The notes beneath the pieces were generated by a model, which was not told where the DNA came from, ran no database searches, and worked only from the letters and a program-made list of their open reading frames with translations. From NCBI GenBank assembly GCA_016342285.1, contig JAEINQ010000024.1, forward strand, positions 1 through 64,000: a stretch of DNA of 64,000 nt, given 5' to 3'. The stretch comes from Desulfobacterales bacterium. GTDB lineage: Bacteria; Desulfobacterota; Desulfobacteria; Desulfobacterales; JAEINQ01. This document shows, in pieces, positions 43,514-54,965 of this stretch. A program made the translations under genes and the position numbers. Within the stretch, counting starts at the first letter, position 1. Each line of letters opens with the position of its first letter.

Positions 43514-44488
43514 TCAGATAACGAAAATCAGTACCAGGCTGACCACCATGGCATAGATGGCTGTGGATTGGCTCACCGCCTGCCCCACCAGCATGACGCG
43601 CATGAGATCGCCTGCGTATTCGACGTTTCTGGCCACCCACCGCACCGCTCCTTCGGCCACCATACCGTTGCCGATGCCCGGTCCGATGCCACCGAATCCC
43701 GTGCAGAGTCCGGCACTGAAAAGGGCCGCGGCGGCACTGAGCGAAGGCGACGGTGGATAGGATTTGAAGATCAGAATGAAACTGACCAGGAGTCCGAAGA
43801 CCGAAGGAGTCTGGGACACGGCCTGTCCCACCAGCATGGTGGTGGTGACGTTGGGGGTCGTGTCGGGGTTGCGGGCCACCCCTTCGCAACTCGCACCGGC
43901 GGCGAGGCCGCCGCCGTATCCCGAGCCGATGGCCGCCAGTCCCGTACTCAGACCGGCGCCGATCAGGGCCGCCCAAGTCGGATTTGTCGATGCCGTGCCC
44001 GGGTCCTTGAACATGAGCATCAGGGCAACCACCATGGCAAAGATGGCCGGGGTCTGACAGACCGCGGTACCGATGAGCATGTTGGTGGTCAGGCGTCCGG
44101 TGACCTGGGGCTGCCGGGCAAGGCCCTCGCAGGCTTTTCCGGCCGGAAATCCGGCGCCGATGCCGGACCCTATGGCGCCCAGTCCCATGCACAGGCCGGC
44201 GCCCAACAGAGCGGCCGCGTTGAGCATGGTGGGGGCGGGGATGTCCATGAACAGGAGCAAAATGGCGATGACCAGGGAGAAGATGGAGGCAGACTCGGAT
44301 ATGGCTTGACCGACCAGCATGGTTTTGATGATGTCGCCGGAGACGTCGCTGTTGCGAGAAATAGCTACGGTGGCTTTTGAGGCGGTGTATCCTTCGCCAC
44401 TGGCGGCGCCGATGGCCCCCATCCCCATGGCCACGGCCGCGCCGAGGTAAGCGGCGATCTGTACGGCGGTATGGGCGTCAAGCGTCAT
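43514..44488 (-). CDS. atpE: Four-hairpin fused subunit c with a single conserved carboxylate
   Basis: 324 residues made of four c-type hairpins in tandem (about residues 1-81, 86-162, 168-243 and 247-324), so eight TM helices. Each has the GxGxG-type helix 1 and a polar loop (RNS, RQP, RNP, RNV). The ion-site Glu appears only in hairpin 1 (Glu65, partner Glu32). At the equivalent positions hairpins 2, 3 and 4 have Gln145, Gln226 and Gln307, with Ala112, Gly193 and Asn274 replacing Glu32. Fused c subunits with lost carboxylates occur in V/A-type rotors and Acetobacterium. The frame is open and overlaps nothing, and the start lies 2 bp after the atpB stop. Confidence 0.92.
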   Translation of the reverse strand: MTLDAHTAVQIAAYLGAAVAMGMGAIGAASGEGYTASKATVAISRNSDVSGDIIKTMLVGQAISESASIFSLVIAILLLFMDIPAPTMLNAAALLGAGLCMGLGAIGSGIGAGFPAGKACEGLARQPQVTGRLTTNMLIGTAVCQTPAIFAMVVALMLMFKDPGTASTNPTWAALIGAGLSTGLAAIGSGYGGGLAAGASCEGVARNPDTTPNVTTTMLVGQAVSQTPSVFGLLVSFILIFKSYPPSPSLSAAAALFSAGLCTGFGGIGPGIGNGMVAEGAVRWVARNVEYAGDLMRVMLVGQAVSQSTAIYAMVVSLVLIFVI

Positions 44489-49199: not shown

Positions 49200-49228
49200 T
49201 TGACAAATTCATCGGCCTTGGATATGTA
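49200..49228 (+). promoter_or_regulatory. Promoter of the Trp-leader/iorAB unit
   Basis: TTGACA (49200-49205, 6 of 6), a 17-bp spacer, TATGTA (49223-49228, 3 of 6). A perfect 9-bp inverted repeat, ATCGGCCTT (49211-49219) and AAGGCCGAT (49250-49258), spans the -10 and may be an operator. Confidence 0.5.
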
Positions 49229-49259
49229 GTGGCAGTTTTCAACCAAGGAAAGGCCGATC

Positions 49260-49301
49260 ATGAAACCGACATGCTGGTGGTGGTGGTGGCAGCGCCCATG
49301 A
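49260..49301 (+). CDS. Trp-rich leader peptide (13 residues)
   Basis: The frame reads MKPTC, then five consecutive Trp, then QRP and TGA. GGAAAGG 7 nt upstream gives it a Shine-Dalgarno. Chance of five TGG in a row in such a position is low. The codons (GGTGGTGG run) can pair with CACCACC at 49310-49316. It resembles the leader peptides of trp attenuators. It ends RP-stop, as TnaC does, but the spacing from Trp to Pro differs. It precedes the 49397 terminator and iorA. Confidence 0.75.
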   Translation: MKPTCWWWWWQRP

Positions 49302-49396
49302 AGCTTGCTCACCACCTGGAAAAAACGTCCGATTGATTTCAGAGCTGTGGGAAGCTTCGGCAGGCGCGCGAAGGAGCCCATGGCTTTTTTTATTAC

Positions 49397-49435
49397 ACAG
49401 CCAGGGCTTTTTCGACAAGTCCTGGCTGTTTTTTT
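49397..49435 (+). terminator. Attenuator terminator ahead of iorA
   Basis: ACAGCCAGGGCTT (49397-49409) pairs with AAGTCCTGGCTGT (49417-49429): 13 bp with one G-U, 7-nt loop, then seven T. It ends 17 bp before the iorA start codon, so without read-through iorA is not transcribed from the upstream promoter. An alternative pair, GCTGTG (49344-49349) with CACAGC (49396-49401), would break it. Confidence 0.85.
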
Positions 49436-49452
49436 CGATCAGGAGGAAAGTC

Positions 49453-51282
49453 GTGAAAAAAAAGGTGTTGATGCTGGGCAACGAGGCCATCGCCCAGGGG
49501 TTGGCGGAATGCGGATGCCGCGTGGCAACCGCCTATCCCGGGACACCGTCTTCGGAGATCCTGGCTTCGGTGGCCGATCTTGTGCGAGCACACGATCTGG
49601 ACATGCATGTGCAGTGGGCCGTCAATGAGAAGGTGGCTTTTGAGATCGCCTATGCCGGGGCCATGAGCGGTTTGCGGACGGCGGTGGCCATGAAACAGGT
49701 GGGGCTGAATGTGGCTTCGGATCCGCTCATGAGTGCCGCCTACATGGGCGTGCGGGGCGGGTTTGTTGTGATCAGCGCCGACGACCCCGGTCCTCATAGC
49801 TCCCAGACCGAGCAGGACAGCCGGCTCATGGCCATGATGGCAAAAATTCCGGTGCTTGACCCCGGGTCTCCGCGCCAGGCTCGCGACATGATTGCCTTGG
49901 CCTATGAACTGTCCGAAACCCATGAAATACCGGTGATGCTCCGGCCCACCACCCGGGTTTGTCATGCCCGGCAGGACGTGGCGCCCGGTCCGGTTTTTCG
50001 GTCGGCCACCGTGCCGGATTTTCAAAAAGATCCGACCCGATGGGCGGCGACGCCTAAATTCCGGTTTCACCTCCATGGCCGGTTGGAGGAGAAGCTGGTC
50101 GCTGTTGCCGAATTTGAAAAGACCGCTCCCCGCCAGCTCAATGAATCGGCGACCGGAGCGCGGGCCGTTGTTGCCTCGGGGGTGGCGGCGGCCCACGCCG
50201 AAGAAATTCTTCGCGCCCTGGGGCTCTGGCAGACCCTGCCCCTGTTCCAGGTGATTCAGCCCTTCCCCTTGCACCGGGCCTTTGTGGCGGACCTGGCCGA
50301 ACGTTTCCCGGAGATCCTGGTCATCGAAGAGACCATGGGTGTCATCGAAATGCAACTGGCCGATCGAAGCCGGGTCCGCGGTAAGCTTGACAACGTCGTA
50401 CCGCGGGTCGGTGAACTGGGACCCGAAACCGTGGAAAAACTGATCTGTGAGTTTGCCGGCGTTCCATTCCAGATCGCTTCGGTGATCGCGGCGCCGGGCC
50501 GGCGGCCGACCCTGTGCGCGGGATGCCCCCACCGGGCCAGTTTCTTCGCCATCAAAAAGGCCGCGCCACGGGGGATTTATACCAGCGATATCGGTTGCTA
50601 CACCCTGGGGCTCAACCTCGGCGCCGTGGATACGGTGCTTTGCATGGGCGCTGCCATCAGTCAGGCCGCGGGGTTTTACCAGGCCTACAAGGGGGAGGCG
50701 AAGCCGCCGAAAATCGTGGCAACCATCGGCGATTCCACTTTTTTTCATGCGGGGGTGCCTGCCCTCATCGATGCGGTGACGCAGTCCGTGCGGTTTGTGC
50801 TGGTGATCCTGGACAACCGGACGACAGCCATGACCGGCAATCAGCCGACCCCGGCCACGGGGATCGGCGCTGGTGGCGAGCCGCTTCGTCCACTCGACCT
50901 GGAACGCCTGGTGCACGGCTGCGGGGTGGATTACCTGCAAACAGCCGACCCTTACGATCTGCCCGCATTCATCGAAACCCTCAAGGATGCCGTGGCCTGG
51001 AGCCGTGAGAATGGTCCGGCCGTGGTGATCTCCCGTCATCCATGCCTGCTGGATCGACGTCAGGGCGGATCGGAACCGTTCATCGACATTCGGATTACCG
51101 ATGGCTGTGACGGCTGCGGTTACTGCATCGAGCATTTCGAGTGTCCGGCCCTGATCATGGCAGACCATGCCGAGCGGGTCACCATTGACGCTGCTCTGTG
51201 CAGCGGATGCGGTGTCTGTATTCACGTCTGTCCGAAGAAATCCATCGAGGCTGTCGCATCCGACCTCCGGGAGGGGAAATGA
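49453..51282 (+). CDS. iorA: Indolepyruvate:ferredoxin oxidoreductase, alpha subunit
   Basis: A 609-residue subunit. The N-terminal pyrimidine-binding half (AYPGTPSSEIL, AMKQVGLNVASDPLMS) and the C-terminal TPP domain (CAGCPHRASF, TIGDSTFFHAG, LDNRTTAMTGNQPTP) are followed by two [4Fe-4S] motifs (CDGCGYC, CSGCGVCIHVCP). It converts arylpyruvates to aryl-acetyl-CoA with ferredoxin, reversibly. The GTG at 49453 has AGGAGG 6 nt upstream; the longer reading frame would run through the terminator. iorB overlaps by 4 bp. Confidence 0.95.
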   Translation: MKKKVLMLGNEAIAQGLAECGCRVATAYPGTPSSEILASVADLVRAHDLDMHVQWAVNEKVAFEIAYAGAMSGLRTAVAMKQVGLNVASDPLMSAAYMGVRGGFVVISADDPGPHSSQTEQDSRLMAMMAKIPVLDPGSPRQARDMIALAYELSETHEIPVMLRPTTRVCHARQDVAPGPVFRSATVPDFQKDPTRWAATPKFRFHLHGRLEEKLVAVAEFEKTAPRQLNESATGARAVVASGVAAAHAEEILRALGLWQTLPLFQVIQPFPLHRAFVADLAERFPEILVIEETMGVIEMQLADRSRVRGKLDNVVPRVGELGPETVEKLICEFAGVPFQIASVIAAPGRRPTLCAGCPHRASFFAIKKAAPRGIYTSDIGCYTLGLNLGAVDTVLCMGAAISQAAGFYQAYKGEAKPPKIVATIGDSTFFHAGVPALIDAVTQSVRFVLVILDNRTTAMTGNQPTPATGIGAGGEPLRPLDLERLVHGCGVDYLQTADPYDLPAFIETLKDAVAWSRENGPAVVISRHPCLLDRRQGGSEPFIDIRITDGCDGCGYCIEHFECPALIMADHAERVTIDAALCSGCGVCIHVCPKKSIEAVASDLREGK

Positions 51283-51836
51283 AACAAACCATGGAACAGC
51301 AGATTGTCATCAGCGGGGTCGGCGGTCAGGGAGTCCTTTTTGTGACGCGGCTGCTGGCCGAGGCGGCCATCGCCGGAGGGCGGTCAGTGATCACTGCCGA
51401 AACCCACGGTATGGCCCAGCGCGGGGGTACGGTTTTGTCCCATCTGAAGATCGGCCACTGGTCCAGTCCCATGATCCGCCGGGGACAGGCCGACGGTATC
51501 TTGTCCCTGAAAGCCGAAACCATGGCCGCCCACAGCCATTTTCTCAAGCCTTCGGCCTGGGCTGTGGTCAACGCCACGGCGACAGATGATATGGAAGGCG
51601 GCGATTTGCGGTCCCCCGTGGCCGCTGACGCCATTGCCGAACGGATTGCCAATTCGCGCGCCGTCAATCTCATCATTTTGGGAGCGGCTCTGGGGCGGGC
51701 GGAACGAAACCCCGCCGAAGTGTCGCTTTTTTGCACCTTCGACGATATTATAGCCGTGGTCGAGAGCCGCTTGCATGACAGACCCCATATGCGTGACCGG
51801 GCCATTGAGGCCCTGAACGCCGGCCGTTCGGCTTGA
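51279..51836 (+). CDS. iorB: Indolepyruvate:ferredoxin oxidoreductase, beta subunit
   Basis: A 185-residue gamma-type POR-family domain: ISGVGGQGVLFVTRLLAEAA and ETHGMAQRGGTVLSHLK. It completes the heterodimer with IorA. Its ATG overlaps the iorA stop (ATGA), so the two are translationally coupled. TRAP transporter genes follow 90 bp downstream on the same strand. Confidence 0.95.
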   Translation: MKQTMEQQIVISGVGGQGVLFVTRLLAEAAIAGGRSVITAETHGMAQRGGTVLSHLKIGHWSSPMIRRGQADGILSLKAETMAAHSHFLKPSAWAVVNATATDDMEGGDLRSPVAADAIAERIANSRAVNLIILGAALGRAERNPAEVSLFCTFDDIIAVVESRLHDRPHMRDRAIEALNAGRSA

Positions 51837-51926: not shown

Positions 51927-52949
51927 ATGAAAAGAGCAGGAAGCGTTTTTCTGGTAGCGATTTTATTGGTTTCAGGGCTGGTCTGTCTGGGTGCTACCGG
52001 CACGGCGACCGCTGGTGCCGTCAAACTCAGCTATGCCAATTTCCCGCCGGCACCCACGTTTCCCTGTGTTCAGATGGAGCGCTGGAAAACGGAGGTCGAA
52101 AAACGGACCCACGGGGCCGTGGCCATCGACACCTATCCCGGCGGCACCCTGCTGGGCGCCAAGGAGATGATGGACGGGGTCATCGCCGGCCAGGCCGATA
52201 TCGGCAACCTGTGCATGGCCTACCAGCCCGGCAGGTTCGTATTGACCAATGCCACCAGCCTGCCGCTGGATATTCCCGATGCGCGAACCGGCAGCGTGGT
52301 TTTGTGGGAACTCTACAAGAAGTACCTGCCCAAGGCCTTTGACAAGGTCAAGGTCCTGACCATGTTCACCACGGCGCCGGCCAACATCATGTCCAAGATG
52401 CCGATCCGCAACCTCGACCAGCTCAAGGGGGTGGACCTGAGGGCGTCGGGCGGTGCGGCCCAGATTCTCAAGGCCTGGGGCGCCAACCAGGTCGGCATGC
52501 CCATGTCGGCCACTCCCGAGGCCTTGCAAAAAGGGGTGGTTCAGGGCCTGTTTTCCTCTCTGGAAGCCATGAAAGATTTCAACTACGCCGAGTTGTGTCG
52601 GTACGTGACCTTGACCGATACGGTGATCTACCCCTTTGCCGTGGTTATGAATATGGATGCCTGGAACCGGCTCCCGGCCGATGTTCAGAAGGTTATGAAC
52701 GACCTGGGCACCGAGCAGGCCGAGTGGACGGGCAATTACATGGACAACCATGTCAAGGATTCCATTGCCTGGTCCAAGAAGACCTACAACGTGGAATTTA
52801 TCGCGTTGCCGGCGGCGGAGAAACAGAAGATGAACGGGCTGCTCCAACCCATCACCGACAAGTGGATCGCAGACGCCAAGGCCAAGGGCTTTGCCGCCGA
52901 GGCCATTGTCTCCGACATTCGGGCGCTGACCAAGAAATACGGTCAATGA
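51927..52949 (+). CDS. dctP: TRAP transporter substrate-binding protein (DctP family)
   Basis: A 340-residue periplasmic binding protein with a Sec signal peptide (residues 1-28). The fold-typical GVIAGQADIG and the carboxylate-binding Arg172 (LKGVDLRASGG) mark the DctP/TAXI-type SBP. It catches an organic acid; C4-dicarboxylate, keto acid or aryl acid cannot be separated here. AAGGAG lies before the ATG. Close to iorAB, so an arylacetate or aryl keto acid is a testable idea. Confidence 0.9.
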   Translation: MKRAGSVFLVAILLVSGLVCLGATGTATAGAVKLSYANFPPAPTFPCVQMERWKTEVEKRTHGAVAIDTYPGGTLLGAKEMMDGVIAGQADIGNLCMAYQPGRFVLTNATSLPLDIPDARTGSVVLWELYKKYLPKAFDKVKVLTMFTTAPANIMSKMPIRNLDQLKGVDLRASGGAAQILKAWGANQVGMPMSATPEALQKGVVQGLFSSLEAMKDFNYAELCRYVTLTDTVIYPFAVVMNMDAWNRLPADVQKVMNDLGTEQAEWTGNYMDNHVKDSIAWSKKTYNVEFIALPAAEKQKMNGLLQPITDKWIADAKAKGFAAEAIVSDIRALTKKYGQ

Positions 52950-53178: not shown

Positions 53179-53664
53179 ATGTTGGAACGATTCTGCAACG
53201 CCGCGAGCCGGTATCTTGTGGTAGCGGGTGGGGTTTTTCTGGTGGCCATGATGGGGCTGACCTGCGGCAATATCCTGTTTCGGCTGGTGTGGGTGCCCAT
53301 TCGCGGGACCTTTGAGTTGATGGGCTTTTTCGGTGCTGTCGTGGCCGCTTTTGCCCTGGGCTATACCCAACTCAGGCGCGGGCACATCGCCGTTGACGTG
53401 CTGGTCAATACCTTTTCGGATCGTACCCGGCTGCTGCTGGTGCGGATCAACAGCCTCCTGTGCGCGGTCTTTTTTGCCGTGGTAGCCTGGCAGTTGGCGG
53501 AAAAAGGGCATGTGCTGCGATTGACCGAAGAGGTGACCGAGACCTTGAGGGTCATCTACTACCCGTTCGTTTACGGCGTGGCCCTGGGTTTTGCCTTCCT
53601 CGCCCTGGTCTTCATGCTGGACCTGCTTCGCACCCTGAGGCCGGCTGCGGGAGGTGGCCATTGA
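53179..53664 (+). CDS. dctQ: TRAP transporter small membrane subunit (DctQ)
   Basis: A 161-residue protein with four TM helices and the family features (GTFELMGFFGAVVAAFALGY; RRGHIAVDVLV). It links the binding protein to DctM. AGGAG lies before the ATG. Its stop overlaps the dctM start (TTGA). Confidence 0.9.
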   Translation: MLERFCNAASRYLVVAGGVFLVAMMGLTCGNILFRLVWVPIRGTFELMGFFGAVVAAFALGYTQLRRGHIAVDVLVNTFSDRTRLLLVRINSLLCAVFFAVVAWQLAEKGHVLRLTEEVTETLRVIYYPFVYGVALGFAFLALVFMLDLLRTLRPAAGGGH

Positions 53665-54965
53665 GCCTGGCCCTGGTTGGTATTATCGGCATCCTGGTCT
53701 TGCTGGCGGTCCTTTTCTTTCTGGGTACGCCGGTGGGGTTTGCCATGGCCATGGTGGGCTTTGCCGGGTTTTGCTGGGTGGTCTCGTTCAAGGCCGGGCT
53801 CAACATGCTTAGCGCTGTCCTCTGGTCCACCTTTTCCAAATACGGCCTTACGGTGATTCCGCTCTTCATCTTCATGGGGCAGATCGCCTTCTATTCCGGC
53901 GTTAACGAAAAGCTCTACCAGGCGGCCTATCGATGGGTGGGGCATATCCGTGGCGGTATTGCCATGGCCACGGTCATGGCCTGTGCGGCTTTTAGCGCCA
54001 TTTGCGGGTCCAATGCCGCCACAGCCGCCACCATGACCACCGTGGCGCTGCCCCAGATGAAAAAATTCGGCTACCACCCGCGACTGAGCACCGGGGCCGT
54101 GGCCTGCGGTTCGACCCTGGGGGTGGTGATCCCGCCCAGCGTGGTGCTCATCGTCATCGGCCTGTCCACCAAACAGTCCATTGCCAAACTGTTCTATGGC
54201 GGGGTTGGGGCCGGTATCCTTCTGGCCCTGCTGCTGATGGCCACGATCTATGCCATTTGCCGCGTCTATCCCAACTGGGGGCCGGTGGGCCCCAAGACCG
54301 GCATGGGTGAGAAACTTCGGTCCCTTTCCGGTGCCCTGGAGATGGTCGTGCTGTTTCTGCTGGTGATGCTGGGACTCTACACCGGTTTTTTCACCCCGAC
54401 CGAAGCCGGCGCGGCCGGGGCGTTTTTTGCCCTGATCATCAGCCTGGTCCAGGGCCGGCTGGGTTGGAAGGGGTTTGTCGCCTCGGTGAGCGACACCCTG
54501 CGCATCTCCTGCATGGTCATCGTCATCGTGGCCGGAGCCATGATCTTCGGACGGTTTCTGGCCGTGACCCGCATCCCTTATGATATCGCCACCTGGGTGG
54601 TGAGCCTGCCTGTGCCCCGGGTCGTGGTCATGGCCATCATCTTTTTAATCTACGTGATCGGCGGGGCGGTCATGGACGCCCTGGCCCTGCTGCTCATCAC
54701 CATTCCCATTTTTTTTCCCGTGGCCGAACAGCTCGGCTACGATCCGCTCTGGTTCGGGGTCGTCATCACCGTGATCACCACCCTGGGGGCGGTCACGCCG
54801 CCGGTTGGGGCCACCACCTACGTGGTGGGAGGCCTGGCCAAAGACATCCCCCTGGGAGAGGTGTTCAAGGGGGTCACCTATTTTCTACCGGCCTATGTGC
54901 TTTGCGTGATCCTCCTGATGATCTTTCCGGGGCTGGTCACCTGGCTGCCCGGAATGATTCAGTGA
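53661..54965 (+). CDS. dctM: TRAP transporter large membrane subunit (DctM)
   Basis: A 434-residue permease with about 12 TM helices; FLGTPVGFAMAM, SNAATAATMTTVALP, GSTLGVVIPPSVVL and GAVTPPVGATTYVV are DctM signatures. Length equals the family norm when TTG at 53661 is used; GGGAGG lies 6 nt upstream and the TTGA overlap couples it to dctQ. The longer frame beginning inside dctQ is rejected. It drives uptake with the Na+ or H+ gradient. Confidence 0.93.
   Translation: MSLALVGIIGILVLLAVLFFLGTPVGFAMAMVGFAGFCWVVSFKAGLNMLSAVLWSTFSKYGLTVIPLFIFMGQIAFYSGVNEKLYQAAYRWVGHIRGGIAMATVMACAAFSAICGSNAATAATMTTVALPQMKKFGYHPRLSTGAVACGSTLGVVIPPSVVLIVIGLSTKQSIAKLFYGGVGAGILLALLLMATIYAICRVYPNWGPVGPKTGMGEKLRSLSGALEMVVLFLLVMLGLYTGFFTPTEAGAAGAFFALIISLVQGRLGWKGFVASVSDTLRISCMVIVIVAGAMIFGRFLAVTRIPYDIATWVVSLPVPRVVVMAIIFLIYVIGGAVMDALALLLITIPIFFPVAEQLGYDPLWFGVVITVITTLGAVTPPVGATTYVVGGLAKDIPLGEVFKGVTYFLPAYVLCVILLMIFPGLVTWLPGMIQ

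Follow-up and report, generated by a model that had tools for sequence, protein, structure and literature searches.

A conserved tryptophan leader with re-pairing RNA hairpins, a putative attenuator, precedes iorAB in Desulfobacterales

The iorAB-dctPQM operon of a Desulfobacterales bacterium (GenBank assembly GCA_016342285.1, contig JAEINQ010000024.1) is preceded by a short leader frame with five consecutive tryptophan codons and by RNA segments that can pair in alternative ways. The window, i.e. the whole stretch of DNA analyzed, comprises positions 1 to 64,000 of this contig (64,000 nucleotides). Sequence comparison with relatives confirmed that this Trp leader with switching hairpins before iorA is real, and the element is very probably a ribosome-mediated tryptophan attenuator controlling the operon. 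The original prediction had read the site as ribosome-mediated trp attenuation upstream of iorAB, and the comparison strongly supports this reading. A lack of leader conservation in relatives had been set beforehand as the refuting outcome; conserved leaders are present, though 23 of 36 iorA orthologues are without a detectable one. We further propose, on balance with somewhat more confidence than doubt, a phylum-wide tryptophan starvation regulon built on one RNA switch (trpE-A, trpB2, iorAB, aryl-CoA ligase genes and TRAP or LIV-type importers). Under it the indolepyruvate ferredoxin oxidoreductase (IOR) would run in reverse on imported indoleacetate, and a single ribosome stall would open two tandem terminators by domino re-pairing. 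The features in the window are as follows.

49200-49228, + strand: candidate promoter, TTGACA (49200-49205), 17-nt spacer and weak TATGTA (49223-49228), from sequence
49245-49253, + strand: Shine-Dalgarno-like AAGGAAAGG of the leader peptide, read from sequence
49260-49301, + strand: leader peptide frame MKPTCWWWWWQRP with its stop codon, read from sequence
49300-49316, + strand: segment 2, GAAGCTTGCTCACCACC, partner of segment 1 or 3, overlaps the leader stop codon
49341-49358, + strand: segment 3, AGAGCTGTGGGAAGCTTC, partner of segment 2 (antitermination) or 4 (termination)
49370-49391, + strand: segment 4, GAAGGAGCCCATGGCTTT (49370-49387) with a T7 run (49385-49391), partner of segment 3 or 5
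49397-49412, + strand: segment 5, ACAGCCAGGGCTTTTT, 5' arm of terminator T2, other partner segment 4
49417-49435, + strand: segment 6 (49417-49434) with its T run, forming the 3' side of terminator T2
49453-51282, + strand: iorA-like gene, indolepyruvate ferredoxin oxidoreductase alpha homologue, GTG start (TIGR03336, domains)
51279-51836, + strand: iorB-like gene, beta subunit, start overlapping the iorA stop (ATGA) (NF004916, PF01558)
51927-52949, + strand: dctP, TRAP transporter substrate-binding protein (NF037995, over cut-off)
53179-53664, + strand: dctQ, TRAP small permease (PF04290; no NCBIfam match)
53460-54965, + strand: dctM, TRAP large permease, open frame (TIGR00786, over cut-off, frame residues 89-497); true start probably near 53660-53720

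The leader frame starts with ATG at 49260 and ends with TGA at 49299-49301. Its 13 codons encode MKPTC, five tryptophans and QRP, and the five consecutive TGG codons (49275-49289) constitute segment 1. The frame and its own Shine-Dalgarno are present in the sequence as originally described. Of the promoter claimed with them, TTGACA is found at 49200; the -10 element is weak and a consensus promoter scan gave no leader promoter there. Among 61 aligned leaders, 53 contain at least three Trp codons and 50 are preceded by a Shine-Dalgarno-like motif (loose pattern). Where the upstream sequence suffices (59 leaders), 48 have TTGAC at -110 to -30 relative to the leader start.

A promoter and terminator scan predicted a terminator of 13 pairs at 49397-49429, upstream of iorA. 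The end of its stem lies 23 nt, and the end of its T run 17 nt, before the GTG at 49453, in agreement with the predicted 13-bp intrinsic terminator ending 17 bp before iorA. This terminator (T2) is, however, the second of two hairpins. The first, T1 (3:4, 49341-49387, then T7 at 49385-49391), is terminator-like and had been overlooked together with the 4:5 pairing; T1 is absent from the output of the terminator scan for the window. The resulting anatomy consists of six segments, for which the proposed roles are stop for 1:2, 3:4 and 5:6 and go for 2:3 and 4:5. Duplex energies in the window, for segments picked by hand, are -13.6 (1:2), -15.0 (2:3), -20.0 (3:4), -20.5 (4:5) and -22.7 kcal/mol (5:6). 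All five pairings are found in 10 of the 11 leaders given duplex analysis; the remaining one, L062, ends at 3:4. Two of the pairings had been foreseen: the Trp codons are complementary to CACCACC (1:2) in the window, and GAAGCTT at 49300 can pair with AAGCTTC at 49352 (2:3), a pairing that is also conserved in relatives.

From these directly observed segments, their complementarity and their spacing we infer how the switch would respond to tryptophan, i.e. by ribosome stalling and by termination. When charged tRNA-Trp is scarce, the ribosome would stall on the TGG run and cover segment 1, leaving free segment 2, which starts 10 nt past the last TGG and would then pair with segment 3. With 2 paired to 3, segment 4 would escape from 3 and pair with 5, so that hairpins 3:4 and 5:6 remain unformed and RNA polymerase would continue into iorA. 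When tryptophan is plentiful, the ribosome would arrive at the stop codon, which overlaps segment 2, and mask that segment; 3:4 and then 5:6 would form and transcription would stop.

In its predicted mode of action the switch resembles trp attenuators, and its six segments are arranged as in the his attenuator. In trp attenuators of the E. coli type a leader with a run of Trp codons is combined with a 2:3 antiterminator that competes with a 3:4 terminator, and the stop codon lies at segment 2. The element described here shares the short Trp-run leader, the 2:3 versus 3:4 choice and the position of the stop codon, and in relatives it precedes trpE operons, as trp attenuators do. It differs in being found also before iorAB, paaK-like and trpB2 genes, and in the second hairpin 5:6 and the 4:5 pairing that many members add. 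The his attenuator has a full scheme of six segments, A to F. Its terminator stem E+F and its region C have been described (Johnston et al. 1980, cited in PMC10065794, as far as given there). The likeness lies in six segments with alternating pairings, one stall re-pairing the whole chain; unlike in the his attenuator, Trp replaces His and 3:4 is often U-tailed, making both hairpins terminator-like. Ribosome-mediated trp attenuators are also found in actinobacteria, and Corynebacterium diphtheriae carries attenuators on trpB1EDGC and trpB2A (PMC1262725, accessible part). As in the Desulfobacterales relatives, more than one Trp operon per genome, trpB2 included, thus carries an attenuator in C. 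diphtheriae; this is a member of another phylum, and ior and ligase genes are unmentioned in the accessible part of that paper (PMC1262725). Neither the window nor the loci of four relatives reached the gathering score of any Rfam family, and at a relaxed threshold the leader gave five sub-threshold miRNA or snoRNA matches, at chance level; a known Rfam element was therefore rejected. No report that connects attenuation with ior or phenylacetate-CoA ligase genes was found in the open-licence literature, and PMC2965389 makes no mention of tryptophan, indolepyruvate or Desulfo-.

Conservation was first assessed at iorA. Of 96 genomes searched, 36 (that of the window included) have an IorA orthologue of at least 47% identity, and in 13 of these 36 loci a leader was found by eye or by model. 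One of the 13 (L065) sits before a trpB2 gene that is itself upstream of iorA, and two of the 23 leaderless loci have less than 330 nt of upstream sequence. The 96 genomes contain no second member of the family of the window, and carriers of the element are scattered over many families of the order. Leaders of relatives include MKTIHANWWWRAD, MKHIFWWWWYKP, MIRRSWWWWWQTP and MQFMYWCWCWRT. On the 3' side of the Trp codons they have the blocks GAAGC-n-GCTCACC, GTGAG-n-GCTTC and GAAG-n-GCTCAYGGC in common.

A covariance model of segments 1-4, R1, was built from eight leaders. Within the order, 88 of 389 genomes have a match (E<=0.01). Of 395 genomes sampled from the phylum, 22 match (E<=1e-4), and 19 of these lie outside the order; a class-level search gave none outside the order among the matches listed. 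Beyond the first set, 54 R1 matches were fetched, leaving aside 28 order-level matches with E >3e-4. Six fetched loci (L174, L175, L177, L178, L180 and L181), with no Trp leader seen or a partial model match, were left out of the resulting alignment A3 of 61 leaders. Two further, antisense rows of A3 are left out of the leader counts and included in the pairing statistics for 2:3 and 3:4.

R1 does not contain coding sequence of downstream genes, so that its association with particular genes is an independent test. The nearest identified downstream gene of the 61 leaders is iorA in 32, a PaaK-like ligase gene in 10, trpB2 in 6, a trp-operon gene in 11 (trpE in 9 of these) and dctP in 1; one leader has no identified downstream gene. 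One PaaK-like ligase was scanned and scored 397.7 bits against a PaaK cut-off of 646.3, and the one TrpB2 scanned is over its cut-offs. Outside the order, the 17 loci that were fetched show the same kinds of genes, a comparison leaving out the phylum matches G696 and G402, which had no locus. Here the first gene is iorA in five loci, trpB2 in five, trpE in three, and trpD and a paaK-like gene in one each; of the remaining two, one has a DAHP synthase gene followed by trpE and the other reaches the contig end ~120 nt after the leader. The genomes G259 and G277 have two copies each, one before ior and one before trpB2. The DAHP synthase gene preceded by the switch (L313) encodes the first step of the shikimate pathway.

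Among named genomes, 80 iorA loci were scanned for a W-leader up to 450 nt upstream, and 26 of the 80 have a sense-strand R1 match (E<=0.05). Records in which iorA-like genes follow the element are from Desulfobacterales, and a few others are labelled Syntrophaceae or Syntrophobacterales. The cultured Desulfosarcina alkanivorans, D. widdelii, D. cetonica, Desulfospira joergensenii and two Desulfobacter showed no W-leader in the <=450 nt upstream of iorA. Scanning 800 nt upstream of 30 trpB2 loci revealed a clear Trp leader in L182 only. In a FastTree phylogeny of 56 IorA proteins (33 with leader; L177 coded as 'no leader') leader presence is clustered and at least 11 changes are needed, a distribution that gain and repeated loss may fit alike. 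Two loci show partial forms of the element. Upstream of iorA in Desulfonema magnum (L219, 6771-6980) segments like 3 to 6 are present, and the Trp leader is replaced by a long inverted repeat, which suggests a decayed or re-purposed attenuator. Upstream of a trpB2 gene in G123 (L157, 601-735) the RNA segments are kept and the Trp codon run is lost, possibly a pseudo-leader.

The proteins encoded by the operon are best called IOR-like, since both lie just under curated cut-offs: the iorA-like protein scores 636.8 bits with TIGR03336 (cut-off 650.9) and the iorB-like protein 207.1 bits with NF004916 (cut-off 227). The domain set expected of an IOR is present, with TPP and 4Fe-4S domains united in a single alpha chain and accompanied by a POR beta chain. 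The iorA-like protein is the sole full-length IOR-alpha-like protein in the genome, the next match scoring 75 bits. A full trp gene set (trpE, G, D, C, F, B and A) is also present, with trpE at 506 bits against a cut-off of 517.7 and trpB assigned by position and by 29% identity to TrpB2. R1 has one match in this genome, and no Trp leader was found at its trp genes, trpB2 or ligase homologues; only ior would thus respond to the switch. A ligase gene is absent from the operon, though it lies beside ior in many relatives, and ligase homologues are found elsewhere in the genome (58% and 41%).

An attenuator on a gene pair thought to be catabolic had been the puzzle of the original prediction; this puzzle largely dissolves. 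IOR probably works in the synthetic direction here, switched on when tryptophan is scarce. Because trpE operons, trpB2 and aryl-CoA ligase genes carry the element upstream as well, iorAB is probably synthetic or serves salvage in these bacteria, and a gene switched on at tryptophan shortage argues for aromatic amino acid synthesis or salvage from arylacetates. The operon would thus be turned on to supply tryptophan: the TRAP transporter would import an arylacetate, with indoleacetate as the natural guess, and the oxidoreductase would run as a reductive carboxylation to the arylpyruvate. The trp gene set of this genome, the missing ligase gene in its operon and the lack of a leader at those genes count against the synthetic or salvage reading. 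In Methanococcus maripaludis IOR makes aromatic amino acids from aryl acids (Porat et al., Major et al., cited in PMC4162585, PMC3462420, accessible parts). The anabolic use of IOR homologues proposed here resembles this case, which concerns an archaeon for whose IOR an attenuator is unmentioned in the accessible parts of these sources (PMC4162585, PMC3462420). If correct, this reading provides a sequence-based answer on the ambiguous direction of IOR for a group of environmental anaerobes, names a small regulon and provides substrate candidates for its TRAP and LIV-type transporters.

The role usually given to IOR is in fermentation. The best surviving alternative, which we nevertheless consider unlikely, accepts this role: tryptophan attenuation would be real and the operon catabolic, IOR oxidizing tryptophan-derived indolepyruvate, with attenuation limiting waste or tying the operon to translation status. 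Besides the fermentative role, the window itself fits this alternative, as the complete trp gene set and the lack of a ligase gene in the operon mean that salvage is not needed. Induction at tryptophan shortage has, however, the wrong sign for tryptophan breakdown. The presence of the element before trpE operons and trpB2 also stands against catabolism, as does the composition of the ior operons under the switch, which are often iorA-iorB-ligase-TRAP or iorA-iorB-ligase with an LIV-type importer (a label drawn from neighbour reading and a single weak family match, which scored 74.6 bits where the cut-off is 477). Furthermore, 7 of 36 loci have a trpB2-like gene at most ~7 kb away from iorA. 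A serA-like gene is found directly upstream of iorA in L068, L069, L071 and L074, with trpB2 near in L069 and L074; the one serA scanned (L071) is over the TIGR01327 cut-off. This adjacency suggests a link of serine supply with the making of tryptophan.

Alternative pairing was followed through alignment A3. The 2:3 helix was not imposed on the alignment and is not part of the R1 structure; 90.7% of its cells are paired, with 37 double changes, and sliding the partner lowers pairing to 37-53%. Of its 12 pairs, 7 changed on both sides, as high in 2 of 500 shuffles, and its covariation score was reached in 0 of 500, shuffles that ignore relatedness. The 3:4 helix, to which the alignment was fitted, is 94.2% paired with 50 double-change cells. 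A second hairpin with a T-rich tail is present in 53 of the 61 leaders. In these 53 the mean 4:5 duplex energy is -15.6 kcal/mol versus -9.9 kcal/mol for shuffled arms, and 4:5 beats the shuffle mean in 52 (Wilcoxon p 2.8e-10, the sequences being related and so not independent). Taken one by one, 23 of 43 non-trp leaders have a 4:5 pairing that reaches significance against both kinds of shuffle. A diagnostic 4:5 position in 28 leaders (segment 4 first) has T-A in 8, C-G in 8, T-G in 10, T-T in 2 and C-A never. By a crude count, the segment 4 window ends T-rich in 44 of 61 leaders, and both hairpins are followed by T-rich tails in 39 of 61. The two hairpins of some trp-operon leaders (L162, L165, L169) are nearly identical copies, resulting in almost perfect 4:5 pairing. 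As a natural set of attenuators, many with tandem U-tailed hairpins, the 61 aligned leaders may be of use for RNA work.

These data bear on a simpler switch, in which the second terminator alone matters and is opened by 3:5 or by 2:3 alone. The original prediction had proposed such a 3:5 pairing, GCTGTG at 49344 with CACAGC at 49396. The two motifs are indeed complementary in the window, and leaders like L062 do without the second hairpin and have 3:4 alone. CACAGC is, however, present in 1 of 53 second hairpins; the 3:5 pairing is not conserved and was rejected. With 3:4 conserved with covariation and 4:5 above shuffles in 52 of 53 leaders, the simpler switch is improbable.

The geometry of the leaders is that expected if a stalled ribosome frees segment 2 and a ribosome at the stop codon masks it. 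Among the 42 non-trp leaders with at least three Trp codons, the distance from the end of the last Trp codon to segment 2 is exactly 10 nt in 34, and in 32 segment 2 starts within the stop codon. TnaC is a nascent leader peptide that senses high free tryptophan and induces its operon. A TnaC-like leader with a catabolic logic would share the presence of tryptophan in a leader peptide ahead of a tryptophan metabolism gene. TGG runs at a fixed distance from segment 2 and alternative hairpins point to codon stalling instead, and the residues flanking the Trp run vary among leaders, which makes this mode of sensing more doubtful still than the simpler switch. In A3 leaders the second place of the Trp run is often taken by Cys, Phe or Tyr (WCWWW, WFWWW, WYWWW); such leaders may sense other amino acids, or the substitution may merely preserve RNA pairing.

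The attenuator reading was also followed by masked folding, in which the footprint of the ribosome was blocked with assumed edges. RNA ending at 49411 switched as expected: a ribosome placed on Trp codon 1, 3 or 5 gave 2:3 and 4:5, and one placed on the stop codon gave 3:4. The ribosome-free RNA to 49411, less in line with a switch, also folded into 2:3 and 4:5. The shorter and the full-length RNA were also less in line. In RNA to 49391, 2:3 formed for a ribosome on codon 1 only, and codons 3 and 5 gave 3:4; full-length RNA contained 5:6 in every ribosome state and 3:4 with the ribosome on codons 3 and 5. Since 5:6 forms in full-length RNA in all states and 3:4 forms at 49391, antitermination would have to be kinetic. 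In known attenuators antitermination hinges on the order and speed of synthesis.

The run TGGTGGTGGTGG occurs 33 times in this genome, versus 28 times for the reversed pattern, and a W-rich mini-ORF was seen at 7 others of 30 fetched loci containing it. The one inspected among these 7 (L004) is antisense and inside a long frame. With such counts, and W-rich mini-ORFs at other runs, the TGG run alone was dropped as evidence. The whole leader folds with z = -2.54, 3 of 200 shuffles being equally good. A chance TGG run next to an ordinary upstream terminator, as a genome rich in TGG runs might offer, is of negligible probability and refuted by the comparison, since leader, spacing and pairings are conserved in relatives and the element recurs in the order and the phylum with gene specificity. 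Elsewhere in the window (43514-44488, - strand) lies a gene for an ATP synthase c subunit of four fused copies (324 aa; PF00137, four stretches). It adjoins the ATP synthase a subunit gene and encodes an unusual rotor subunit.
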